8,709 nt of DNA. Origin: Pseudomonadota bacterium (lineage in GTDB: Bacteria > Pseudomonadota > Gammaproteobacteria > Steroidobacterales > Steroidobacteraceae). Location: contig QGUX01000146.1 of the NCBI GenBank assembly GCA_003242275.1, forward strand, positions 1 through 8,709. Direction: 5' to 3'. The position numbers and the translations under genes are program-made. Of the stretch, positions 1 through 7,176 are shown one piece after another (within the stretch, counting starts at the first letter, position 1; each line of letters opens with the position of its first letter). The notes under the pieces were generated by a model. The model saw nothing but the letters and a program-made list of their open reading frames with translations, ran no database searches and was not told the origin of the DNA.

Positions 1-71
1 CGGAAACGCACGCCCTTGACGACCTGGCCGTCACGGACGTCGAGGCAGGGGATCAGGCGTCGCGCAAGTAT
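1..71 (-). CDS. hisF: HisF, imidazole glycerol phosphate synthase cyclase subunit (5' end only)
   Basis: This is the first 23 codons of the cyclase subunit that, with HisH, turns PRFAR and ammonia into imidazole glycerol phosphate and AICAR. The visible residues contain IPCLDVRDGQVVKGVRF, the conserved HisF N-terminus. The only plausible start is ATA at 71-69. Counting that codon as residue 1 puts the catalytic aspartate at 11 and the conserved lysine at 19, the same numbers as in the well-studied Thermotoga HisF. A strong GGAGGAG ribosome binding site lies 8 nt upstream, and no ATG, GTG or TTG is in frame nearby. The gene overlaps the end of hisA by 19 nt and is the seventh enzyme gene of the operon. 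It runs off the left edge, so the rest of the barrel cannot be judged. The family call is very secure; the start codon is unusual. Confidence 0.93.
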   Translation of the reverse strand, partial: MLARRLIPCLDVRDGQVVKGVRF

Positions 72-793
72 GGCTGCAACTCCTCCATGCTGATGCGGCC
101 CTCGAGCAGGGCCTTGCCGCTGATGGCGGCGGCCAGTCCCATCTGCGCCAGGCGCGCCAGGTCGGCCGCCGAGCTGATGCCGCCCGAGGCCTGCCAGGCG
201 ATGCGCGGGAAGCGGCGCTGCGCCTCCGCGTACAGCTCGATGCTGGGACCGGCCAGCGCGCCATCGCGCGAGATGTCGGTGCACAGCACGTGCTTGAGGT
301 CGGTGTCGGCGAAGGACTCCAGCAGCTGCCACAGCGACAGCGCGTGTTCCTCCACCCATCCTTTCGTGCGCACGCGCGGAGTACCGCCCTCGTCCACGCG
401 CACGTCGATGGCCAGGCACACGGCCTCCGGGCCATGGGCGCTGAGCAGCTCGCGCAGCAGGGCAGGGTTCTCCACCGCGGCACTGCCGATCACCACGCGG
501 GCCACGCCCAGAGCCAGCGCCTGCTCCGCCAGCTCGCGCGTGCGCAGGCCGCCGCCCAGCTGGATGCGAAGCCGTCCAGCGCCGGCCATGCGGGCGATCA
601 GCCCGTGGTTGCCCGGCGTGCCGTCGCGCGCGCCGTCGAGGTCGACCAGGTGCAGCCAGCGTGCGCCGGCGTCGGCGTACCGGTTCAGCAGGTCGAGCGG
701 ATCGACCTCGTAGCGGGTCTCGGCGTGGAACTCGCCCTTCAGCAGGCGCACGCAGCGCCCGCCGCGCAGGTCGATGGAGGGAATCAGCAGCAC
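53..793 (-). CDS. hisA: HisA, phosphoribosylformimino-AICAR ribotide isomerase (ProFAR isomerase)
   Basis: HisA carries out the Amadori isomerisation of ProFAR to PRFAR, the substrate of HisF-HisH, in the cytoplasm. The product is 246 residues, the usual size. It is a single TIM barrel with the two expected catalytic aspartates: D8 in LIPSIDLRGG and D130 in CLAIDVR. Phosphate-binding glycine motifs are at 79-82 (LGGG) and 204-205 (SGG), and the C-terminal half has CTDISRDG at 171-178. The start is GTG at 793, chosen because it begins the conserved VLLIPSIDLRGG and has GGGAG 5 nt upstream. The reading frame stays open upstream to about 1240, but that part is a shadow of hisH. The gene starts 1 nt after the hisH stop and overlaps hisF at its end. 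Confidence 0.97.
   Translation of the reverse strand: MLLIPSIDLRGGRCVRLLKGEFHAETRYEVDPLDLLNRYADAGARWLHLVDLDGARDGTPGNHGLIARMAGAGRLRIQLGGGLRTRELAEQALALGVARVVIGSAAVENPALLRELLSAHGPEAVCLAIDVRVDEGGTPRVRTKGWVEEHALSLWQLLESFADTDLKHVLCTDISRDGALAGPSIELYAEAQRRFPRIAWQASGGISSAADLARLAQMGLAAAISGKALLEGRISMEELQPYLRDA
80..86 (-). promoter_or_regulatory. Strong ribosome binding site for hisF
   Basis: On the minus strand this reads GGAGGAG, close to a full anti-16S match, and sits inside the hisA coding sequence. The spacer to the ATA at 71-69 is 8 nt, which is near ideal. It is the main evidence that translation of hisF starts at the ATA rather than further in. It may also compensate for a poor initiator codon. 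Confidence 0.75.
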
Positions 794-794
794 G

Positions 795-1412
795 TCAGCT
801 CCCGAGGGCAACGAAGTTGGCGAGCAGCCGCGCGCCCACGGCGGCGGAACGCTCGGGATGGAACTGCACGCCGCGGAAGTTGCCGCGGCGCACGGCGGCG
901 GTGAAGCGCCCGCCATAGTCGCTGGCGGCCAGCGTGTACGGGCCCACCGGCACGGCGAAGCTGTGCACGAAGTACACGTAGTCGCCGTCCTTGATGCCAT
1001 CGAACAGCGGGTCTTCCGCCAGCAGCTCGAGCTGGTTCCAGCCCATGTGCGGCACCGGCTGTCCGGGACTGGCCGGGATGCGCGCCACGCGCCCGGGCAC
1101 GATGCCCAGGCAGCGCGTCTCGGTGGCGCCGCCGCCGACGGTCTCCTCCGAGGCCTCGAACAGCAGCTGCATGCCCAGGCAGATCCCGAGCACGGGCTGG
1201 GTGAGCTTCGGCAGCAGCCCGGCCACTCCGGCGTCGGCAAGGCGCTTCATCGCATCCGGCGCCGCGCCCACGCCGGGCAGCAGCACATGCGAGGCCGCGG
1301 CGATGCGCGCCGCATCGCGGCTGACCTCGGCCTTCACGCCCAGGCGGCCGAGCGCGTGCAGCAGCGAGGCAAGGTTGGCGCCGCCGCTGTCGATGACCAC
1401 CACGGCGCTCAC
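795..1412 (-). CDS. hisH: HisH, imidazole glycerol phosphate synthase glutaminase subunit
   Basis: HisH is the class I glutamine amidotransferase that hydrolyses glutamine and channels ammonia to HisF. The product is 205 residues, typical for the family. The triad is visible: nucleophile C78 in GICLGMQ, then H185 and E187 in VQFHPERS. PHMGWN at 121-126 and YFVHSF at 147-152 are further family motifs. The start is GTG at 1412, which shares GTGA with the hisB stop. AAGGGGG lies 4 nt upstream and VSAVVVIDSGGAN matches the expected N-terminus. Longer upstream reading of this frame is out-of-frame hisB and was not used. It lies between hisB and hisA, as in many gammaproteobacterial operons, and its partner HisF is two genes downstream. 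Confidence 0.97.
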   Translation of the reverse strand: MSAVVVIDSGGANLASLLHALGRLGVKAEVSRDAARIAAASHVLLPGVGAAPDAMKRLADAGVAGLLPKLTQPVLGICLGMQLLFEASEETVGGGATETRCLGIVPGRVARIPASPGQPVPHMGWNQLELLAEDPLFDGIKDGDYVYFVHSFAVPVGPYTLAASDYGGRFTAAVRRGNFRGVQFHPERSAAVGARLLANFVALGS

Positions 1413-2485
1413 AGCACCCCCTTGGTGGAGGGCAGCTCGCTGCCCTCGCGCCGGAACGCCATGCGCAGCGCGCGGCCCACGCCCTTGAAGCAGACCTCGA
1501 CCATGTGGTGGGTGTTCTCGCCGGTGACGCTGATGTGCAGCGAGGCGCCCAGCGTATCGGCCAGCGAGCGGAAGAAGTGCGGCACCAGCTCGGTGGGCAG
1601 CTGCCCGACCTCGCTGCGGCCGAATCGGCCCTCCCACACGAAGTAGGGCCGGCCCGAGAGGTCGATGGCCACCTGCACGCGCGACTCGTCCATGGGCAGC
1701 AGGAAGCCGTAGCGGCCGATGCCGCGCTTGTCGCCCAGCGCCTTGCGCAGCGCCTCGCCGAGGGCCAGCGCGCAGTCCTCGACGGTGTGGTGCTCGTCGA
1801 TGTGCAGGTCGCCCTTGCAGGCGAGCTTCAGTGAGAAACCGCCGTGCCGGGCGATCTGCTCCAGCATGTGGTCGAAGAAGCCGATGCCGGTGCTGACCTC
1901 GATGGGACTTTCGGCGTCGAGGTCCACGGACAGGCGGATGTCGGTCTCCTTCGTCCTGCGTTCCACGCTGGCGCGACGGGCCAGCAGCTCGGTGGCCACC
2001 GCCGGCCAGGTCTCGGCCGGCGAGCCATCCTTCAGCACCTTCAGGCCCCGCACGCCGATGTTGCGCGCCAGTTCGAGGTCGGTGTCGCGGTCGCCGACCA
2101 CGGCGCTGGCGGCGAGGTCCACGGCGGTGCGTCGCAGGTAATCGCCGAGGATGCCGGGCCTTGGCTTGCGGCACTCGCAGCCATCGGCCGGCCTGTGCGG
2201 ACAGATGAACACCTCGTCGAACGTGATGCCCTGGCTGGCCAGCGTGTCGATGATGAAGTCCTGCACGGGCTGGAACTGCTCGCGCGGGAAGCTCGCCGTG
2301 CCCAGGCCGTCCTGGTTGGTCACCATCACCAGCCGGTAGCCGGCCGCCACCAGCCGCTGCAGCGCGGCGAACACGCCGGGCATCCAGTGCACCTTGGCGA
2401 GGCTGTCCACCTGTTCGTCGGCCGGCTCCTCGACCAGCGTGCCATCACGATCGATGAACAGTACTTTCTGCAACGGGGTGCTCAT
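1409..2485 (-). CDS. hisB: HisB, bifunctional histidinol-phosphatase / imidazoleglycerol-phosphate dehydratase
   Basis: This fused enzyme catalyses dehydration of imidazole glycerol phosphate and, two steps on, dephosphorylation of histidinol phosphate. The 358 residues split into an N-terminal HAD phosphatase (about 1-165) and a C-terminal dehydratase (about 170-358). In the phosphatase, D12 and D14 of FIDRDGT are the HAD catalytic pair. C95, H97, C103 and C105 form the zinc site and GDRDTD is at 131-136. In the dehydratase, FFDHML (203-208), ARHGG (212-216), DEHHTVED (230-237) and ENTHHMVE (323-330) carry the metal-binding histidines. The start is ATG at 2485, overlapping the hisC stop as ATGA, with GGAG 8 nt upstream. 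Length and layout match the E. coli-type fusion (355 residues). All key residues are present in both halves. Confidence 0.98.
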   Translation of the reverse strand: MSTPLQKVLFIDRDGTLVEEPADEQVDSLAKVHWMPGVFAALQRLVAAGYRLVMVTNQDGLGTASFPREQFQPVQDFIIDTLASQGITFDEVFICPHRPADGCECRKPRPGILGDYLRRTAVDLAASAVVGDRDTDLELARNIGVRGLKVLKDGSPAETWPAVATELLARRASVERRTKETDIRLSVDLDAESPIEVSTGIGFFDHMLEQIARHGGFSLKLACKGDLHIDEHHTVEDCALALGEALRKALGDKRGIGRYGFLLPMDESRVQVAIDLSGRPYFVWEGRFGRSEVGQLPTELVPHFFRSLADTLGASLHISVTGENTHHMVEVCFKGVGRALRMAFRREGSELPSTKGVL

Positions 2486-3567
2486 GACAGGCTCTCCAGC
2501 AGGCGCGCGTTCTGTTCCGGGGTGCCCACCGAGATGCGCAGGCTGTTCGGCAGGGCGGGCTGGCGCACGTCACGGATGATCAGGCCGGCCTTGCGCACGC
2601 GCCGCAACACCTCGTCGGGATCGGTGCAATCCACCAGCAGGAAGTTGGCATCGCTGGGCCACACCCGCGTGACGAGCGGCGAGCGCGCGAGGCCCTCGGC
2701 CAGCCGCTCGCGCTCCAGCAGCAGCCGCGCCACGCGCGTGCGCATGCGCGCGACGGCCTCCTCGGTGAGCTGCGGCGCCACGGCCTCGACGGTGAGCTCG
2801 GTGATGGCATAGGGCGGGATCACCTTGCGCGCCAGCTGGATGATGGCCGGATGCGCCAGCAGCGCGCCCACGCGGGCGCCGGCCAGGCCATGCGCCTTCG
2901 ACAGGGTCTTGAGCACCGCCAGGTTCGGCGCCCCGGCGAGGTGGCGTGCCATGCTCTCGACATTGGCGAAATCGATGTAGGCCTCGTCCACCACCAGCAG
3001 CGCGTCCGGCGCGATCGCGCGCGCGATGCGCAGCAGCTGCGCCGGCGGCACGGCATTGCCGGTGGGATTGTTCGGTGAGCACACGAACACCAGCCGCGTG
3101 TTGGCATCCACGCTGGCCAGGATCCGCGGCTCGTCCAGCGTGAAGCCGTTCTCCGCGCACAGCGGCACCGGGCGCACCTCGGCGCCCTGGATGCGGGCCG
3201 CCACACCGTACATGCCGAAGGTGGGCGGGCAGATGATGACGTTGTCCACGCCAGCGCGGCAGAACACGCGCAGCAGCAGGTCGATGGCCTCGTCGCTGCC
3301 GCGGCCCACCAGCACCTGTTCCGGCGAGACGCCATGGAGCTTCGCCAGCCCCTCCACCAGCACCGGCGGCTGCGGTTCGGGGTAGCGGTTCAGCCCCGCC
3401 TCGGTGTCATCGCCGTGCACGCGCCAGGGCAGCTCGTTGGCGTGCATGCGCACCAGCGAGGGCTCCCAGGCGGCATGGCTGTAAGGCGTGAGCGCGAGGA
3501 TCTCGGGGCGCGCCTTCGCCAGTACGGCCTCGATGCCGGGCGCGGAGGAGGAGGCGGGGGCGCTCAT
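2482..3567 (-). CDS. hisC: HisC, histidinol-phosphate aminotransferase
   Basis: HisC is the PLP-dependent enzyme that transfers an amino group from glutamate to imidazole acetol phosphate, giving histidinol phosphate. The product is 361 residues with fold-type I features: GRGSDEAI (88-95), SPNNPTG (164-170), VVDEAYIDF (192-200) and the Schiff-base lysine K224 in TLSKAHGLAGARVG. The conserved arginine near the C-terminus is in LRISVGTP. The start is ATG at 3567, overlapping the hisD stop as ATGA. The frame is open far upstream (to about 4404), but that is a shadow of hisD and gives no HisC-like residues. The first 13 residues are a low-complexity Ala/Ser run, common in GC-rich orthologues. Broader aromatic aminotransferase activity is possible, but the operon position makes HisC the clear call. 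Confidence 0.97.
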   Translation of the reverse strand: MSAPASSSAPGIEAVLAKARPEILALTPYSHAAWEPSLVRMHANELPWRVHGDDTEAGLNRYPEPQPPVLVEGLAKLHGVSPEQVLVGRGSDEAIDLLLRVFCRAGVDNVIICPPTFGMYGVAARIQGAEVRPVPLCAENGFTLDEPRILASVDANTRLVFVCSPNNPTGNAVPPAQLLRIARAIAPDALLVVDEAYIDFANVESMARHLAGAPNLAVLKTLSKAHGLAGARVGALLAHPAIIQLARKVIPPYAITELTVEAVAPQLTEEAVARMRTRVARLLLERERLAEGLARSPLVTRVWPSDANFLLVDCTDPDEVLRRVRKAGLIIRDVRQPALPNSLRISVGTPEQNARLLESLS

Positions 3568-4871
3568 GGCGCCACGCCCAGCGCTTCCAGCCGCACGGTG
3601 ACGGCGCGCGCATGGGCGTCGAGCCCCTCGAGCGTGGCCAGCGTCTCGGCCACCGGACCCAGGCGGCGGATGCCGTCGGCAGTGAGCTCCTGCACGGTCA
3701 TGCGCTTCTGGAAGTCGGTCATCGACAGGCCGCTGTAGGCACGCGCATAGCCGTAGGTGGGCAGCACATGGTTGGTCCCCGAGCAGTAGTCGCCCATGGA
3801 CTCCGGCGACCAGGCACCCAGGAACACCGAGCCGGCGTTGACGATGCCGTCGAGCAGCGCGCGCGGCTCGCGCGTCTGCACGATCAGGTGCTCGGGCGCG
3901 TAGGCATTGGACACCTCCAGCGCCTGGGTGAGCGTGTCGACCACGATGATGCGGCAGTTGCCCACCGACTCCTGCAGGATGCTCTTGCGCGACAGCGCGG
4001 CACGCTGGCGGTCGAACTCCTCCGCCACCGCCGAGGCGAGCTGCGCCGAGTCGGTGACCAGCAGCGCCTGCGCGCGCACGTCGTGCTCGGCCTGCGCCAG
4101 CAGGTCCGCCGCCACGAAGGCCGGATTGGCCGCCGAGTCGGCGATCACCAGCACTTCGGAGGGACCGGCGGGCAGGTCGCAGGCCGCCCCTTCCGGATCG
4201 GCCGCCACGAGCTGCTTGGCGGCCGTGGTCAGCGCCGTGCCGGGACCGAAGATCTTGTCCACCTTGGGCACCGATTCGGTGCCATAGGCCATGGCCGCCA
4301 CGGCCTGCGCGCCGCCGGCCTTGAACACGCTGTGCACGCCGCAGCGGCGCGCCGCCACCAGCACCGCCGGATTGGCGCGGCCGTCGGCCGCCGGCGGCGT
4401 GCACAGCACGCGCTGCGGGCAGCCGGCCAGCTGCGCCGGCACGGCCACCATGATCACGGTGGAGGGCAGCGGCGCGGAGCCGGCGGGCACGTACAGCCCC
4501 ACGGCCGGCACCGGCCGGAACAGCCGCTCGCAGCGCACCCCGGGCATCACGTCCATGGCCAGTGGCGCGGTGAGCTGCGCGGCGTGGAAGCGGCGCACGT
4601 TGTCGATGGCGGTCTCGATGGCCGCGATCTGCTTCGGCGCCAGCTCGCGCTCGGCGGCGTCGAACTCTTCGGTGGAGACCTTGAGGCTGGCGAGCTTCGC
4701 GCGGTCGAAGCGCTCGGCGAAGCGCAGCAGGGCGGCATCACCATCCTTGCGCACTTCCTTGATGATGTTGCGCGCGAGCTGCTCCACGTCGTGCAGCGAG
4801 TCGAGCCGGGCGCGCGCCAGCGCCTCGCGTTTTCCCGCCGCATCGAGACTGTTCCATTCGAGGATCTGCAT
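3564..4871 (-). CDS. hisD: HisD, histidinol dehydrogenase
   Basis: HisD performs the last two steps, oxidising L-histidinol to L-histidine via histidinal with two NAD+ and a catalytic zinc. The product is 435 residues, one more than in E. coli. By alignment from memory with E. coli HisD, the zinc and substrate ligands are kept: Q260 and H263 (AQAEH), D361 (MGDY) and H420 (DAHA). The acid-base pair E327-H328 (PEHLI) and E415 are also present. The NAD site keeps Y127 and Q189. The third NAD-contacting residue, Asn211 in E. coli (GPGN), is Thr212 here (GPGT), and the usual AID before PAGPSEV is ACD. Both sites look otherwise intact, so I read these as a lineage variation, not loss of function. 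The start is ATG at 4871, 3 nt after the hisG stop, with only a weak ribosome binding site. Confidence 0.97.
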   Translation of the reverse strand: MQILEWNSLDAAGKREALARARLDSLHDVEQLARNIIKEVRKDGDAALLRFAERFDRAKLASLKVSTEEFDAAERELAPKQIAAIETAIDNVRRFHAAQLTAPLAMDVMPGVRCERLFRPVPAVGLYVPAGSAPLPSTVIMVAVPAQLAGCPQRVLCTPPAADGRANPAVLVAARRCGVHSVFKAGGAQAVAAMAYGTESVPKVDKIFGPGTALTTAAKQLVAADPEGAACDLPAGPSEVLVIADSAANPAFVAADLLAQAEHDVRAQALLVTDSAQLASAVAEEFDRQRAALSRKSILQESVGNCRIIVVDTLTQALEVSNAYAPEHLIVQTREPRALLDGIVNAGSVFLGAWSPESMGDYCSGTNHVLPTYGYARAYSGLSMTDFQKRMTVQELTADGIRRLGPVAETLATLEGLDAHARAVTVRLEALGVAP

Positions 4872-4874
4872 GAT

Positions 4875-5774
4875 TCAGTCCAGCATCTTTTCAACGGGAA
4901 GCACCAGCATGGCGCTTGCGCCGGCGGCCTTCAGGCTCTCCAGCGTCTCCCAGAACACGTTCTCGCGGCACACGGCGTGCACCGCAACCTTGTCCGTGGA
5001 TCCCTCCAGCGGAATGATGGTCGGCGACTCGCTGCCCGGCAGCAGCTCGCGGATGCGGGGCAGGGCCGAGCGCGGCGCGTGCAGCATGATGTACTTGCTC
5101 TCCTTCACCTGCTCCACGCCGTCGATGCGCAGCAGCAGCCGTTCGACCCAGTCCTCCTTCACCTGCGGCAGCTTCACCGGCGTGCGGATCAGCACCACCT
5201 GGCTGGCCAGCACGGTGTGCACCTCGCGCAGGTGGTTGGCCTGCAGCGTGGAGCCCGAGGACACCAGGTCGCAGATCATGTCGGCGCGGCCCAGCCGCGG
5301 CGCGATCTCCACCGCGCCGGACAACGTGACGATCTCGGCCTCGATGCCATTGCGCCTCAAGAAGTCCTCCAGCAGCGCCGGGTAGGTGGTGGCGATGCGC
5401 AGGCCGGCGATGGAGGAGAGGTCCTTCCATGCCATGCCCTCGGGCACGGCCAGCGACAGGCGGCAGTGGCCGAAGTCGAGCCGGCGCAGGATCTCGAAGC
5501 GCGCCGTGGCGCCGCGCGCGGCCATCTCCAGCCGCCGCTCCTCCAGCACGTTCAGGCCCACCAGCCCCAGGTCGCAGACATCCTCCTGCACCAGGTCGGG
5601 GATGTCGTCGTCGCGCACGAACAGCACGTCCAGCGGCAGGTTCTCGCCGTAACCCATGAGCTGGTCCTTGCCGCGCGAGAGCTTCAGGCCGCAGCGGGCC
5701 AGCAGGTCCAGCGAGTGGTCCGTGAGGCGGCCCGATTTCTGCACCGCCAGCTTCAGGCGGGTGTCCTTATCCAT
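4875..5774 (-). CDS. hisG: HisG, ATP phosphoribosyltransferase (long form)
   Basis: HisG joins ATP and PRPP to form phosphoribosyl-ATP, the committed and feedback-controlled step. The 299 residues equal the E. coli length and define the long hexameric form that needs no HisZ. The catalytic domains cover about 1-224, with the N-terminal LAVQKSGRL (9-17) and the PRPP loop region at 156-180 (key piece DLVSSGSTL). The C-terminal ACT-like domain (about 225-299), which binds histidine in this form, is complete. Control by histidine at the enzyme level is therefore expected. The start is ATG at 5774, overlapping the upstream regulator gene by 8 nt (ATGGATAA) and preceded by GGAG 10 nt away. This implies translational coupling between regulator and enzyme. 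Confidence 0.98.
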   Translation of the reverse strand: MDKDTRLKLAVQKSGRLTDHSLDLLARCGLKLSRGKDQLMGYGENLPLDVLFVRDDDIPDLVQEDVCDLGLVGLNVLEERRLEMAARGATARFEILRRLDFGHCRLSLAVPEGMAWKDLSSIAGLRIATTYPALLEDFLRRNGIEAEIVTLSGAVEIAPRLGRADMICDLVSSGSTLQANHLREVHTVLASQVVLIRTPVKLPQVKEDWVERLLLRIDGVEQVKESKYIMLHAPRSALPRIRELLPGSESPTIIPLEGSTDKVAVHAVCRENVFWETLESLKAAGASAMLVLPVEKMLD

Positions 5775-6084
5775 TCCGCATGCTCTCCAGGCGCTTCACG
5801 GCCAGCGCATAGCCGCCGCTGCCCGCGGCCAGGTAACGGGCGACCCGCCCGATGGTGGTGAGACTCACGCCGGTGAGGCGGTGGATCTCGCGATAGGGCA
5901 GGCCCTGCTGCAGCGCCTCGACCACCGCCCAGCGGTCGGCCATGGCCTGCAGCTCGGCGGGCGTGCACAGGTCCTTCAGGAACGCGCGCAGCTCCTCGGG
6001 CGTGCGGCAGGTCAGGATGGCCTGCACCAGCGAACGCTCGGTCTGCGCCTCGTGGCGCGGGGAGAACTGGCGGTTGGTCTTCAT
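5767..6084 (-). CDS. YerC/HisR-type TrpR-family DNA-binding protein, likely histidine-operon regulator
   Basis: This is a 105-residue all-helical protein of the Trp repressor superfamily, YerC/YecD type. The conserved DLCTPAELQAMADRW lies at 38-52. A helix-turn-helix spans 61-85, with YREIH in the first helix and LTTIGRVARYL as the recognition helix. The GSGGY motif at 89-92 follows and is typical of YerC rather than true TrpR. It is the first gene of the his operon and overlaps hisG by 8 nt. Members of this family have been proposed as histidine regulators (HisR); the effector cannot be read from sequence. I infer autogenous repression through the palindrome at 6090-6113, which lies 5 bp upstream. 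The ATG at 6084 has no ribosome binding site before it, so the message may be leaderless or have a very short leader. A true tryptophan repressor is unlikely given the motif and context. Confidence 0.9.
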   Translation of the reverse strand: MKTNRQFSPRHEAQTERSLVQAILTCRTPEELRAFLKDLCTPAELQAMADRWAVVEALQQGLPYREIHRLTGVSLTTIGRVARYLAAGSGGYALAVKRLESMRNG

Positions 6085-6089
6085 GATCT

Positions 6090-6113
6090 AATGTATTAAC
6101 ATGCTAGTATATT
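6090..6113. promoter_or_regulatory. Candidate operator for the TrpR-like regulator (24-bp imperfect palindrome)
   Basis: The left arm is AATGTATTAAC (6090-6100), the centre AT, and the right arm GCTAGTATATT (6103-6113). Read outward from the centre, the half-sites are GCTAGTATATT and GTTAATACATT; 8 of 11 bases agree and the three differences are all transitions, giving GYTARTAYATT. The right half carries CTAGTA at positions 3-8 from the dyad, the same register as CTAGTA in the E. coli trp operator. The site is a sharp AT-rich island in GC-rich DNA and covers the likely -10 box and start of the his transcript. Binding there would repress the regulator and his genes and might also affect divergent metX. 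The protein partner is inferred, not shown. Confidence 0.7.
6106..6111 (-). promoter_or_regulatory. Probable -10 box of the his operon promoter
   Basis: The minus strand reads TATACT, five of six bases of the sigma-70 -10 consensus, inside the palindrome. A start of transcription near 6099 would give a leader of about 15 nt without a ribosome binding site. I see no convincing -35 box at 16-18 nt. An alternative -10, TACATT at 6095-6090, would start the message at or next to the ATG (leaderless). Either way the operator would occlude RNA polymerase. There is no histidine-rich leader peptide or attenuator structure in this short region. Confidence 0.5.
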
Positions 6114-6140
6114 GGAACGCCAGGCGCAAGCCCGGCATGG

Positions 6141-6170
6141 TTGCTGCCCATCGCGCCGGGGCCCTAAAAT
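6141..6170 (+). promoter_or_regulatory. Possible metX-metB promoter
   Basis: TTGCTG (6141-6146) and TAAAAT (6165-6170) are separated by 18 bp. The -10 is a good match (5 of 6) in a very GC-rich setting; the -35 keeps only TTG. Transcription would start near 6177, directly before the TTG at 6178, which raises the question of a leaderless message. I saw no AGACGTCT-like MetJ box and no room for a SAM riboswitch. Confidence 0.4.
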
Positions 6171-6177
6171 CGAGGGC

Positions 6178-7176
6178 TTGTCCAACGCGCTTGGCCAATC
6201 CGCGACGCCCCGCGAAGGCGTCCTCCAGGTCGAAGGCCCGACCACGCTGCACCACGGCGGCACACTGGAACGACTGCAGATCGGCTACTCGCTCAGCGGG
6301 CGGCCCGGACAGCCCGTGGTCCTCGCCCTGGGCGGCATCTCGGCCAGCCGCACCGTGTTCACCCCCGATGGCTCGCGCGCCGGCTGGTGGCACCACGTGG
6401 TGGGGCCGGGCAAGGCGCTGGACACCGACCGGGTGGCCCTGCTGGGCATGGACTACATCGGCGGCAGCGGCGCCACCACCGGCCCGGCGCCGGGCGCGGA
6501 CTTCCCCAGCATCTCCAGCTACGACCAGGCCGAGGCCATCGTGCGGCTGCTGGACCACCTGGGCATCGACAGGCTCTCGGCCATCGTCGGCGCCTCCTAC
6601 GGGGGCATGGTGGCGCTGGCCTTCGGCGAGCGCTACCCGCAGCGTGTCGACCGGCTGGTGGTGATCAGCGCCGCCGACTCCGCCCATCCCATGGCCACGG
6701 CCTGGCGCAGCGTCCAGCGCAACATCGCGCGGCTGGGCCTGGCCTGTGGCTGCCCCACGCAGGCGCTGGAACTCTCGCGCGCGCTGGCCATGTCCACCTA
6801 CAGGAGCCCGGAGGAATTCGACGCGCGCTTCCGCAAGCCGCCGCGCATGGAGGAGGGCCGGCCGGTGTTCCCGGTGGAGGAATACCTCACTGCCCGCGGC
6901 AGGGACTACGCGGCGCGCTACCTGCCGGAATCCTTCATCTGCCTGTCGGAGTCCATCGACCTGCACCAGGTCGACGCCACGCGCATCCCGGTGCGCACCG
7001 AGGTGGTGGCCGTGCGCGAGGACCAGCTCGTGCCCATCGCCGACATGCGCGCCATGACCGCAAGGCTGCCCAATGCAACCTTGCATGAGATTTCCTCGCT
7101 GCTGGGTCATGATGCCTTCCTGAAGGAGGCCGAACAGCTTCGCGCCGTCCTGTCGCTGATCCACTCCGGAGACTGA
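6178..7176 (+). CDS. metX: Short MetX-family homoserine O-acyltransferase (probably O-succinyltransferase)
   Basis: This alpha/beta hydrolase activates homoserine by acylation, the first committed step of methionine synthesis. From the TTG at 6178 it has 332 residues. WWHHVVGPGKALDTDR at 70-85 is the MetX hallmark. The triad is S140 in GASYGGM, D282 in REDQLVP and H311 in GHDAF. The usual NSLGSxxGSTGP segment is replaced by DYIGGSGATTGP (92-103), and the nucleophile elbow GNSMGGM by GASYGGM, so it belongs to a divergent short branch. The acyl donor cannot be read with certainty; the adjacent cystathionine gamma-synthase and the likely lineage favour succinyl-CoA. The start is uncertain: no ATG or GTG is in frame, another TTG lies at 6112 (354 residues), and neither has a well-placed ribosome binding site. 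I prefer 6178 because it follows the promoter-like sequence. It is 2 nt from metB. Confidence 0.85.
   Translation: MSNALGQSATPREGVLQVEGPTTLHHGGTLERLQIGYSLSGRPGQPVVLALGGISASRTVFTPDGSRAGWWHHVVGPGKALDTDRVALLGMDYIGGSGATTGPAPGADFPSISSYDQAEAIVRLLDHLGIDRLSAIVGASYGGMVALAFGERYPQRVDRLVVISAADSAHPMATAWRSVQRNIARLGLACGCPTQALELSRALAMSTYRSPEEFDARFRKPPRMEEGRPVFPVEEYLTARGRDYAARYLPESFICLSESIDLHQVDATRIPVRTEVVAVREDQLVPIADMRAMTARLPNATLHEISSLLGHDAFLKEAEQLRAVLSLIHSGD

Follow-up and report, generated by a model that had tools for sequence, protein, structure and literature searches.

The HisR regulator and its proteobacterial binding motif were published in 2022 (Ashniev et al., PMC9413887). In the main text of that work, the motif is a 20-bp palindrome, TGTAnTArnnnnyTnTTACA, placed immediately upstream of hisR-his in gamma- and alpha-proteobacteria, with Xanthomonadales and other gamma-proteobacteria listed, and proteobacterial HisR proteins constitute the branch nearest to TrpR; the same text reports that histidine promotes DNA binding of Ruminococcus gnavus HisR to its own, different motif. 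Here we analyze an 8,709-nucleotide stretch (the window) of contig QGUX01000146.1, from a bacterium of the Steroidobacteraceae, in which a palindrome at positions 6090-6113 precedes a TrpR-family gene, hisR, and its histidine biosynthesis genes. The core of the palindrome (6092-6111) fits the proteobacterial motif as printed in that main text and occupies the same place upstream of hisR. With a probability of about 0.88, we read 6090-6113 as the predicted operator of HisR, encoded 5 bp downstream as the first gene of a hisR-hisG-hisD-hisC-hisB operon that continues into later his genes, and this operon would be repressed by HisR when its effector, most likely histidine, is plentiful.

Results

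The predicted operator and its conservation

6090 to 6113, no strand assigned: predicted HisR operator, 20-bp core at 6092 to 6111, conserved in 80/80 relatives and matching the published motif
5767 to 6084, minus strand: hisR, TrpR-family repressor of the YerC/YecD (HisR) type (Pfam PF01371, 85.4 bits; NCBIfam TIGR02531)

The palindrome reads AATGTATTAAC-AT-GCTAGTATATT, with half-sites that differ by three transitions, a dyad between 6101 and 6102 and CTAGTA at positions 3-8 counted from the dyad; the ATG of the TrpR-family gene begins after a spacer of 5 bp (6085-6089). All of these features had been described in an earlier reading of the sequence (the original prediction), which proposed an autoregulatory HisR operator, and each was confirmed in the window. 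CTAG stands in the same register in the E. coli trp operator.

Relatives were found by scanning genome contigs, and the best 80 of 248 were retained, the window constituting the 81st locus. For each locus, the 200 bp preceding hisR were scored against the published motif, symmetrised to TGTAnTArnnnnyTAnTACA (14 fixed positions; in print, the right half is yTnTTACA), and the best-scoring site was taken. A site with at least 11/14 matches is present in 81/81 loci, window included (11 in 4 loci, 12 in 10, 13 in 23 and 14 in 44), and the window site scores 13/14. Among controls, a score of 11/14 was seen in 3 of 2718 blocks drawn from these loci and in 14 of 4050 shuffles, and none reached 12. Conservation upstream of the orthologous gene, the check suggested with the original prediction, is thus seen in 80/80 relatives, and the proposal of a HisR operator, which also fits the published motif, proves right in substance. 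Substitutions inside the site between the window and the relative L001 are mostly transitions that preserve the purine/pyrimidine pattern, and the four central bases read YRYR in 78/81 loci (the exceptions being L024, L035 and L059).

As a bare palindrome, judged by pair count, the site is unremarkable. Matching pairs number 9/12 in the 24-bp palindrome and 7/10 in the 20-bp core, and palindromes with at least 9/12 pairs begin at 22 positions in the window, compared to 15.0 (standard deviation 3.9) expected under a first-order Markov model. It is the specific conserved sequence that exceeds chance, and the case for the site is made by this conserved sequence upstream of hisR, not by palindromicity. 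With as many as 3 mismatches allowed, the full degenerate pattern put forward in the original prediction has a single match in the window and appears in 0/200 shuffles; this is weak evidence, because the site itself was the source of the pattern. The palindrome lies in a local AT-rich dip, with a GC content of 20% at 6080-6099 and 40% at 6100-6119, other 20-bp steps across 5980-6239 ranging from 55 to 85%.

Several observations weigh against the operator reading. The window site is an imperfect palindrome (7/10 core pairs); the choice of sites in relatives relied on the published motif, as symmetrised by us; the 80 loci are not independent, because they are kin; the operator of G011, one of 12 related genomes searched for a wider regulon, scores 11/14 and was missed by the 2-mismatch scan; and a consensus promoter scan of 5900-6300 returned no sigma-70 site over its thresholds, the candidate hisR-his -35 and -10 elements included.

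Two further arrangements were seen among the relatives. To the right of the operator in L048 (about 3959-3998), the operator right half and its flank, ggacgcgttattacat, seem to recur on the start-codon side, which resembles a duplication. In L045, L048, L069 and L074 about 1 to 2.4 kb lies between hisR and the SAM-I riboswitch and met genes, yet the HisR operator keeps its place 10-42 bp upstream of the hisR start.

Extent of the regulon

Each of the 12 related genomes encodes one PF01371 protein, and the hisR operator is recovered at up to 1 mismatch in 11 of them; the only other places at this stringency are a separate site (G010:C2) and an overlapping-register copy in G008. At up to 2 mismatches, the forward-strand scan of the 12 genomes yields 38 places vs 49 for a reversed-pattern control, and a wider HisR regulon was rejected since these counts are no higher than the control. 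Judging from these genomes, the HisR regulon appears limited to the hisR-his operon.

Among the 2-mismatch places, 6 stretches were inspected. Three palindromes in G001 (L081:3026-3045, L082:3004-3023 and L083:2116-2135) lie within or close to ABC-transporter genes that share their stretch with a gene for a GntR-family regulator, and they are probably operators of those regulators; a G002 site (in L084) has a type II/IV secretion ATPase gene 276 bp away.

The HisR protein, its operon and its probable effector

The hisR product exceeds the curated cut-off of TIGR02531 (YerC/YecD; 64.3 bits vs 42.2) and falls short of that of the TrpR equivalog TIGR01321 (26.9 bits vs 67.25). Its top solved-structure matches, 3kor, 3frw and 3g1c, are all TrpR-like chains, the last of them named HisR in the main text of PMC9413887. 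Directly after hisR comes hisG, both in the window and in 80/80 relative loci, and then come hisD, hisC and hisB, adjacent genes being a few bases apart or overlapping by a few bases:

4875 to 5774, minus strand: hisG (PF01634/TIGR00070), overlapping the end of hisR by 8 nt
3564 to 4871, minus strand: hisD (PF00815/TIGR00069)
2482 to 3567, minus strand: hisC (TIGR01141)
1409 to 2485, minus strand: bifunctional hisB (NF003937)
53 to 1412, minus strand: presumably hisH and hisA, assigned by visual inspection of the reading frames, with approximate starts

Histidine is a plausible effector of the window HisR, because binding of R. gnavus HisR is promoted by histidine. We consider it unlikely that the operator and protein act as proposed and answer to another signal, be it a pathway intermediate, tryptophan or none. 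TrpR-like contacts are in part kept, which would favor such a signal: the window residues aligned with TrpR Thr44, Arg54, Thr81 and Arg84 are T, R, T and R. The counterparts of TrpR Gly85 and Ser88, however, are V and Y, bearing in mind that the 6fal chain used for the TrpR alignment is itself a variant with Y at 88, and the constant position of hisG after hisR argues for a histidine-related signal. The position of proteobacterial HisR as the branch closest to TrpR and the R. gnavus assay being the only one in the main text of PMC9413887 also leave room for a different effector.

At the position aligned with TrpR Arg69, the window protein has an Arg, at least 95% conserved (within PYRE), whereas 3kor has an Ala. 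An Arg at this position could, from the sequence comparison, explain the TrpR-like TGTA kept in proteobacterial HisR sites. The alignment near a one-residue gap is uncertain, because the main text of PMC9413887 describes Arg69 as replaced by Tyr in HisR.

The divergent metX-metB genes

6178 to 7176, plus strand: metX, homoserine O-succinyltransferase type (NF006449, 342.2 bits, cut-off 296), with a probable TTG start from comparison with L001
7179 to 8339, plus strand: metB-like cystathionine gamma-synthase (TIGR02080, 568.2 bits, cut-off 504.55)
6141 to 6146, plus strand: candidate metX -35, TTGCTG, identical in L001 and L003
6165 to 6170, plus strand: candidate metX -10, TAAAAT, a hexamer also found in L001 and L003

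The window, L001 and L003 all retain TTGCTG and TAAAAT at a spacing of 17-18 bp (the MAFFT alignment displaces the L003 TAAAAT by one column), and the predicted metX transcription start falls at about 6177. Because a TTG codon follows TAAAAT by 7 nt in the window and L001, the sequence suggests a leaderless metX mRNA with a TTG start in both. A TTG at 6112 was rejected as the metX start: its frame is open in both the window and L001, but by eye the resulting 22 residues show little resemblance.

Among relatives, metX was found in 73/80 loci, with metX-metB divergent in most and metX 300-600 bp away in most; in the window, L001 and L003 the intergenic region spans about 90-105 bp. It was not found in L012, L014, L032, L038, L048, L069 and L075, the last having only 470 bp upstream; L014, L048 and L069 do have metB. 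The SAM-I riboswitch (RF00162) occurs in 74/80 relatives (14/16, 17/18, 16/18, 16/16 and 11/12 by batch), 71 with metX and 3 (L014, L048 and L069) with metB only, and hence in 71/73 metX-bearing relatives, those without being L001 and L003. In the window no RF00162 match reached the gathering score, nor was there any at E up to 10 in 6000-6400, so no weak remnant is present. Searches of the remaining L001 and L003 genomes, both metagenome-assembled, found no RF00162 among the 149/255 and 149/173 first-look candidates scored. The window, L001 and L003 form one clade (FastTree support 0.999), and the absence of SAM-I in it amounts to one change on the tree.

The original prediction allowed that the operator might touch divergent metX, a suggestion that we find unsupported, and it is very unlikely that the site governs metX-metB and thereby couples histidine and methionine synthesis. 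The short intergenic region of the window, L001 and L003, with no SAM-I found there, would suit such coupling, and action at a distance is conceivable in principle for a dimer located near -76 relative to the predicted metX start. The candidate metX promoter (6141-6170), however, lies outside the site, which ends 27 bp before the candidate -35 and so need not touch it; metX lies 300-600 bp away in most relatives, and 71/73 metX-bearing relatives have a SAM-I riboswitch for it; the site scores 14/14 in the 7 loci where metX was not found; and metX goes unmentioned in the main text of PMC9413887. On these grounds HisR control of metX was rejected. The loss of SAM-I beside the operator indicates that the methionine neighbor is regulated on its own.

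Half-site repeats and promoter register

6124 to 6129, minus strand: candidate -35 of hisR-his, TTGCGC, 17 bp from the candidate -10 and placed by the near-register peak at -29 to -27 in relatives
6101 to 6106, minus strand: candidate -10 of hisR-his, TAGCAT, inside the operator

That the site covers the -10 box is accordingly a prediction: this candidate -10 lies inside the operator, and the consensus scan of 5900-6300 returned no sigma-70 site over its thresholds.

Taking the published TGTAnTAr at 5/7 or better as an outer half-site, an extra copy lies one 8-bp step beyond the left half in 57/81 loci and beyond the right half in 28/81, the latter in 18/30 of those loci that have 26 bp or more between centre and start codon. 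Over outward shifts of 10 to 60, the maxima are 5/81 (left) and 4/81 (right), both at 16, a multiple of 8. In G008 (L044), two perfect sites overlap 8 bp apart.

The -35-like tetramers of hisR-his concentrate in a far peak, at -37 (11 loci) and -36 (40), and a near peak, at -29 (9), -28 (6) and -27 (1), where one locus can count at two neighboring positions; elsewhere from -46 to -20 they occur in 0 to 2 loci, and at -19 in 13. The two peaks lie 8 bp apart. Register and outer half-site are associated (far with 48, near with 6, far without 8, near without 14; Fisher p = 8e-6, uncorrected for kinship), in a table that leaves out 5 ties and holds some weak assignments (e.g. L075, L078). On a hisG+metX tree of 74 sequences, holding 18/20 near-register loci, the register changes 8 times, whereas each of 500 shuffles required 13 changes or more: registers cluster among kin, but the switch has recurred. 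The window, like Steroidobacter gossypii (L071), belongs to the near register, with TTGCGC (6129-6124) and TAGCAT (6106-6101) separated by 17 bp and without the TG of an extended -10, whose form is TRTGn.

E. coli TrpR binds tandem sites at 8-bp spacing, and tandem HisR dimers are for this reason a natural reading of the repeats. Since the -35 registers and the half-sites are both spaced by 8 bp, a half-site may also double as an extended -10, and the left outer signal may reflect repressor contact or an extended -10. We tentatively propose, at somewhat under even odds, that the operator in this gamma-proteobacterial group is an array of half-sites with an 8-bp period for several tandem HisR dimers, every half-site serving at the same time as an extended -10 (TGnTAAYGT). 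During evolution the his promoter would then have moved by exactly one repeat, with operator and promoter remaining locked together. Against a tandem array, by the same measure, the left copy is missing in 24/81 loci and the right copy in 53/81, and both outer copies are degenerate in the window (5/7 under a looser half-site).

Discussion

The HisR operator reading implies a local, autogenous form of end-product repression. By analogy with homologues, a plentiful effector, most likely histidine, would lead HisR dimers to bind the palindrome, the bound palindrome would probably cover the -10 and transcription start and block RNA polymerase, and starvation would release the his operon. Of the autorepression originally claimed, the placement of a HisR operator upstream of hisR-his is supported by conservation and by the published motif, and the repression itself is predicted. 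It is highly improbable that no protein binds the palindrome and that it merely reflects an AT-rich promoter or chance: 9/12 pairs are common in the window and the site coincides with a likely promoter, but both half-sites are conserved, including the one that lies to the start-codon side of the likely -10, as is the YRYR centre.

This operator is not new in kind, HisR and the proteobacterial motif having been in print since 2022. What is new here is modest detail, namely the half-sites with an 8-bp period, the two -35 registers and the YRYR centre, although the logos (Fig. 3) or supplements of PMC9413887 may already show that centre. Neither "Steroidobacter" nor metX occurs in the main text of that paper, and we found no account of an 8-bp array, of these promoter registers or of the loss of SAM-I in the open-access literature, in which PMC9413887 was covered by its main text. 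The 80 further loci extend the prediction that histidine synthesis in some gamma-proteobacteria is under the control of a DNA-binding repressor, whereas E. coli uses an RNA attenuator; the YRYR centre and 8-bp repeats sharpen the definition of the operator, and the riboswitch loss points to a methionine neighbor with its own regulation.

Among known systems, the SAM-I (S-box) riboswitch is the usual companion of metX in the relatives and is absent from the window, L001 and L003. E. coli TrpR shares its Pfam family with the window protein, which differs in falling below the NCBIfam TrpR cut-off and in adjoining his rather than trp genes. Firmicutes HisR/YerC has in common with it the linkage to his genes and the NCBIfam family name (YerC/YecD), but the Firmicutes motif given in the main text of PMC9413887, cacTTTAnnnnnnTAAAgtg, is unlike the window site. 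The closest match remains the proteobacterial HisR regulon of that text, from which the loci described here differ in having a YRYR centre where the printed consensus reads nnnn, in bearing extra half-sites 8 bp beyond the published 20 bp and, in the window, in the presence of metX as the neighbor of hisR.
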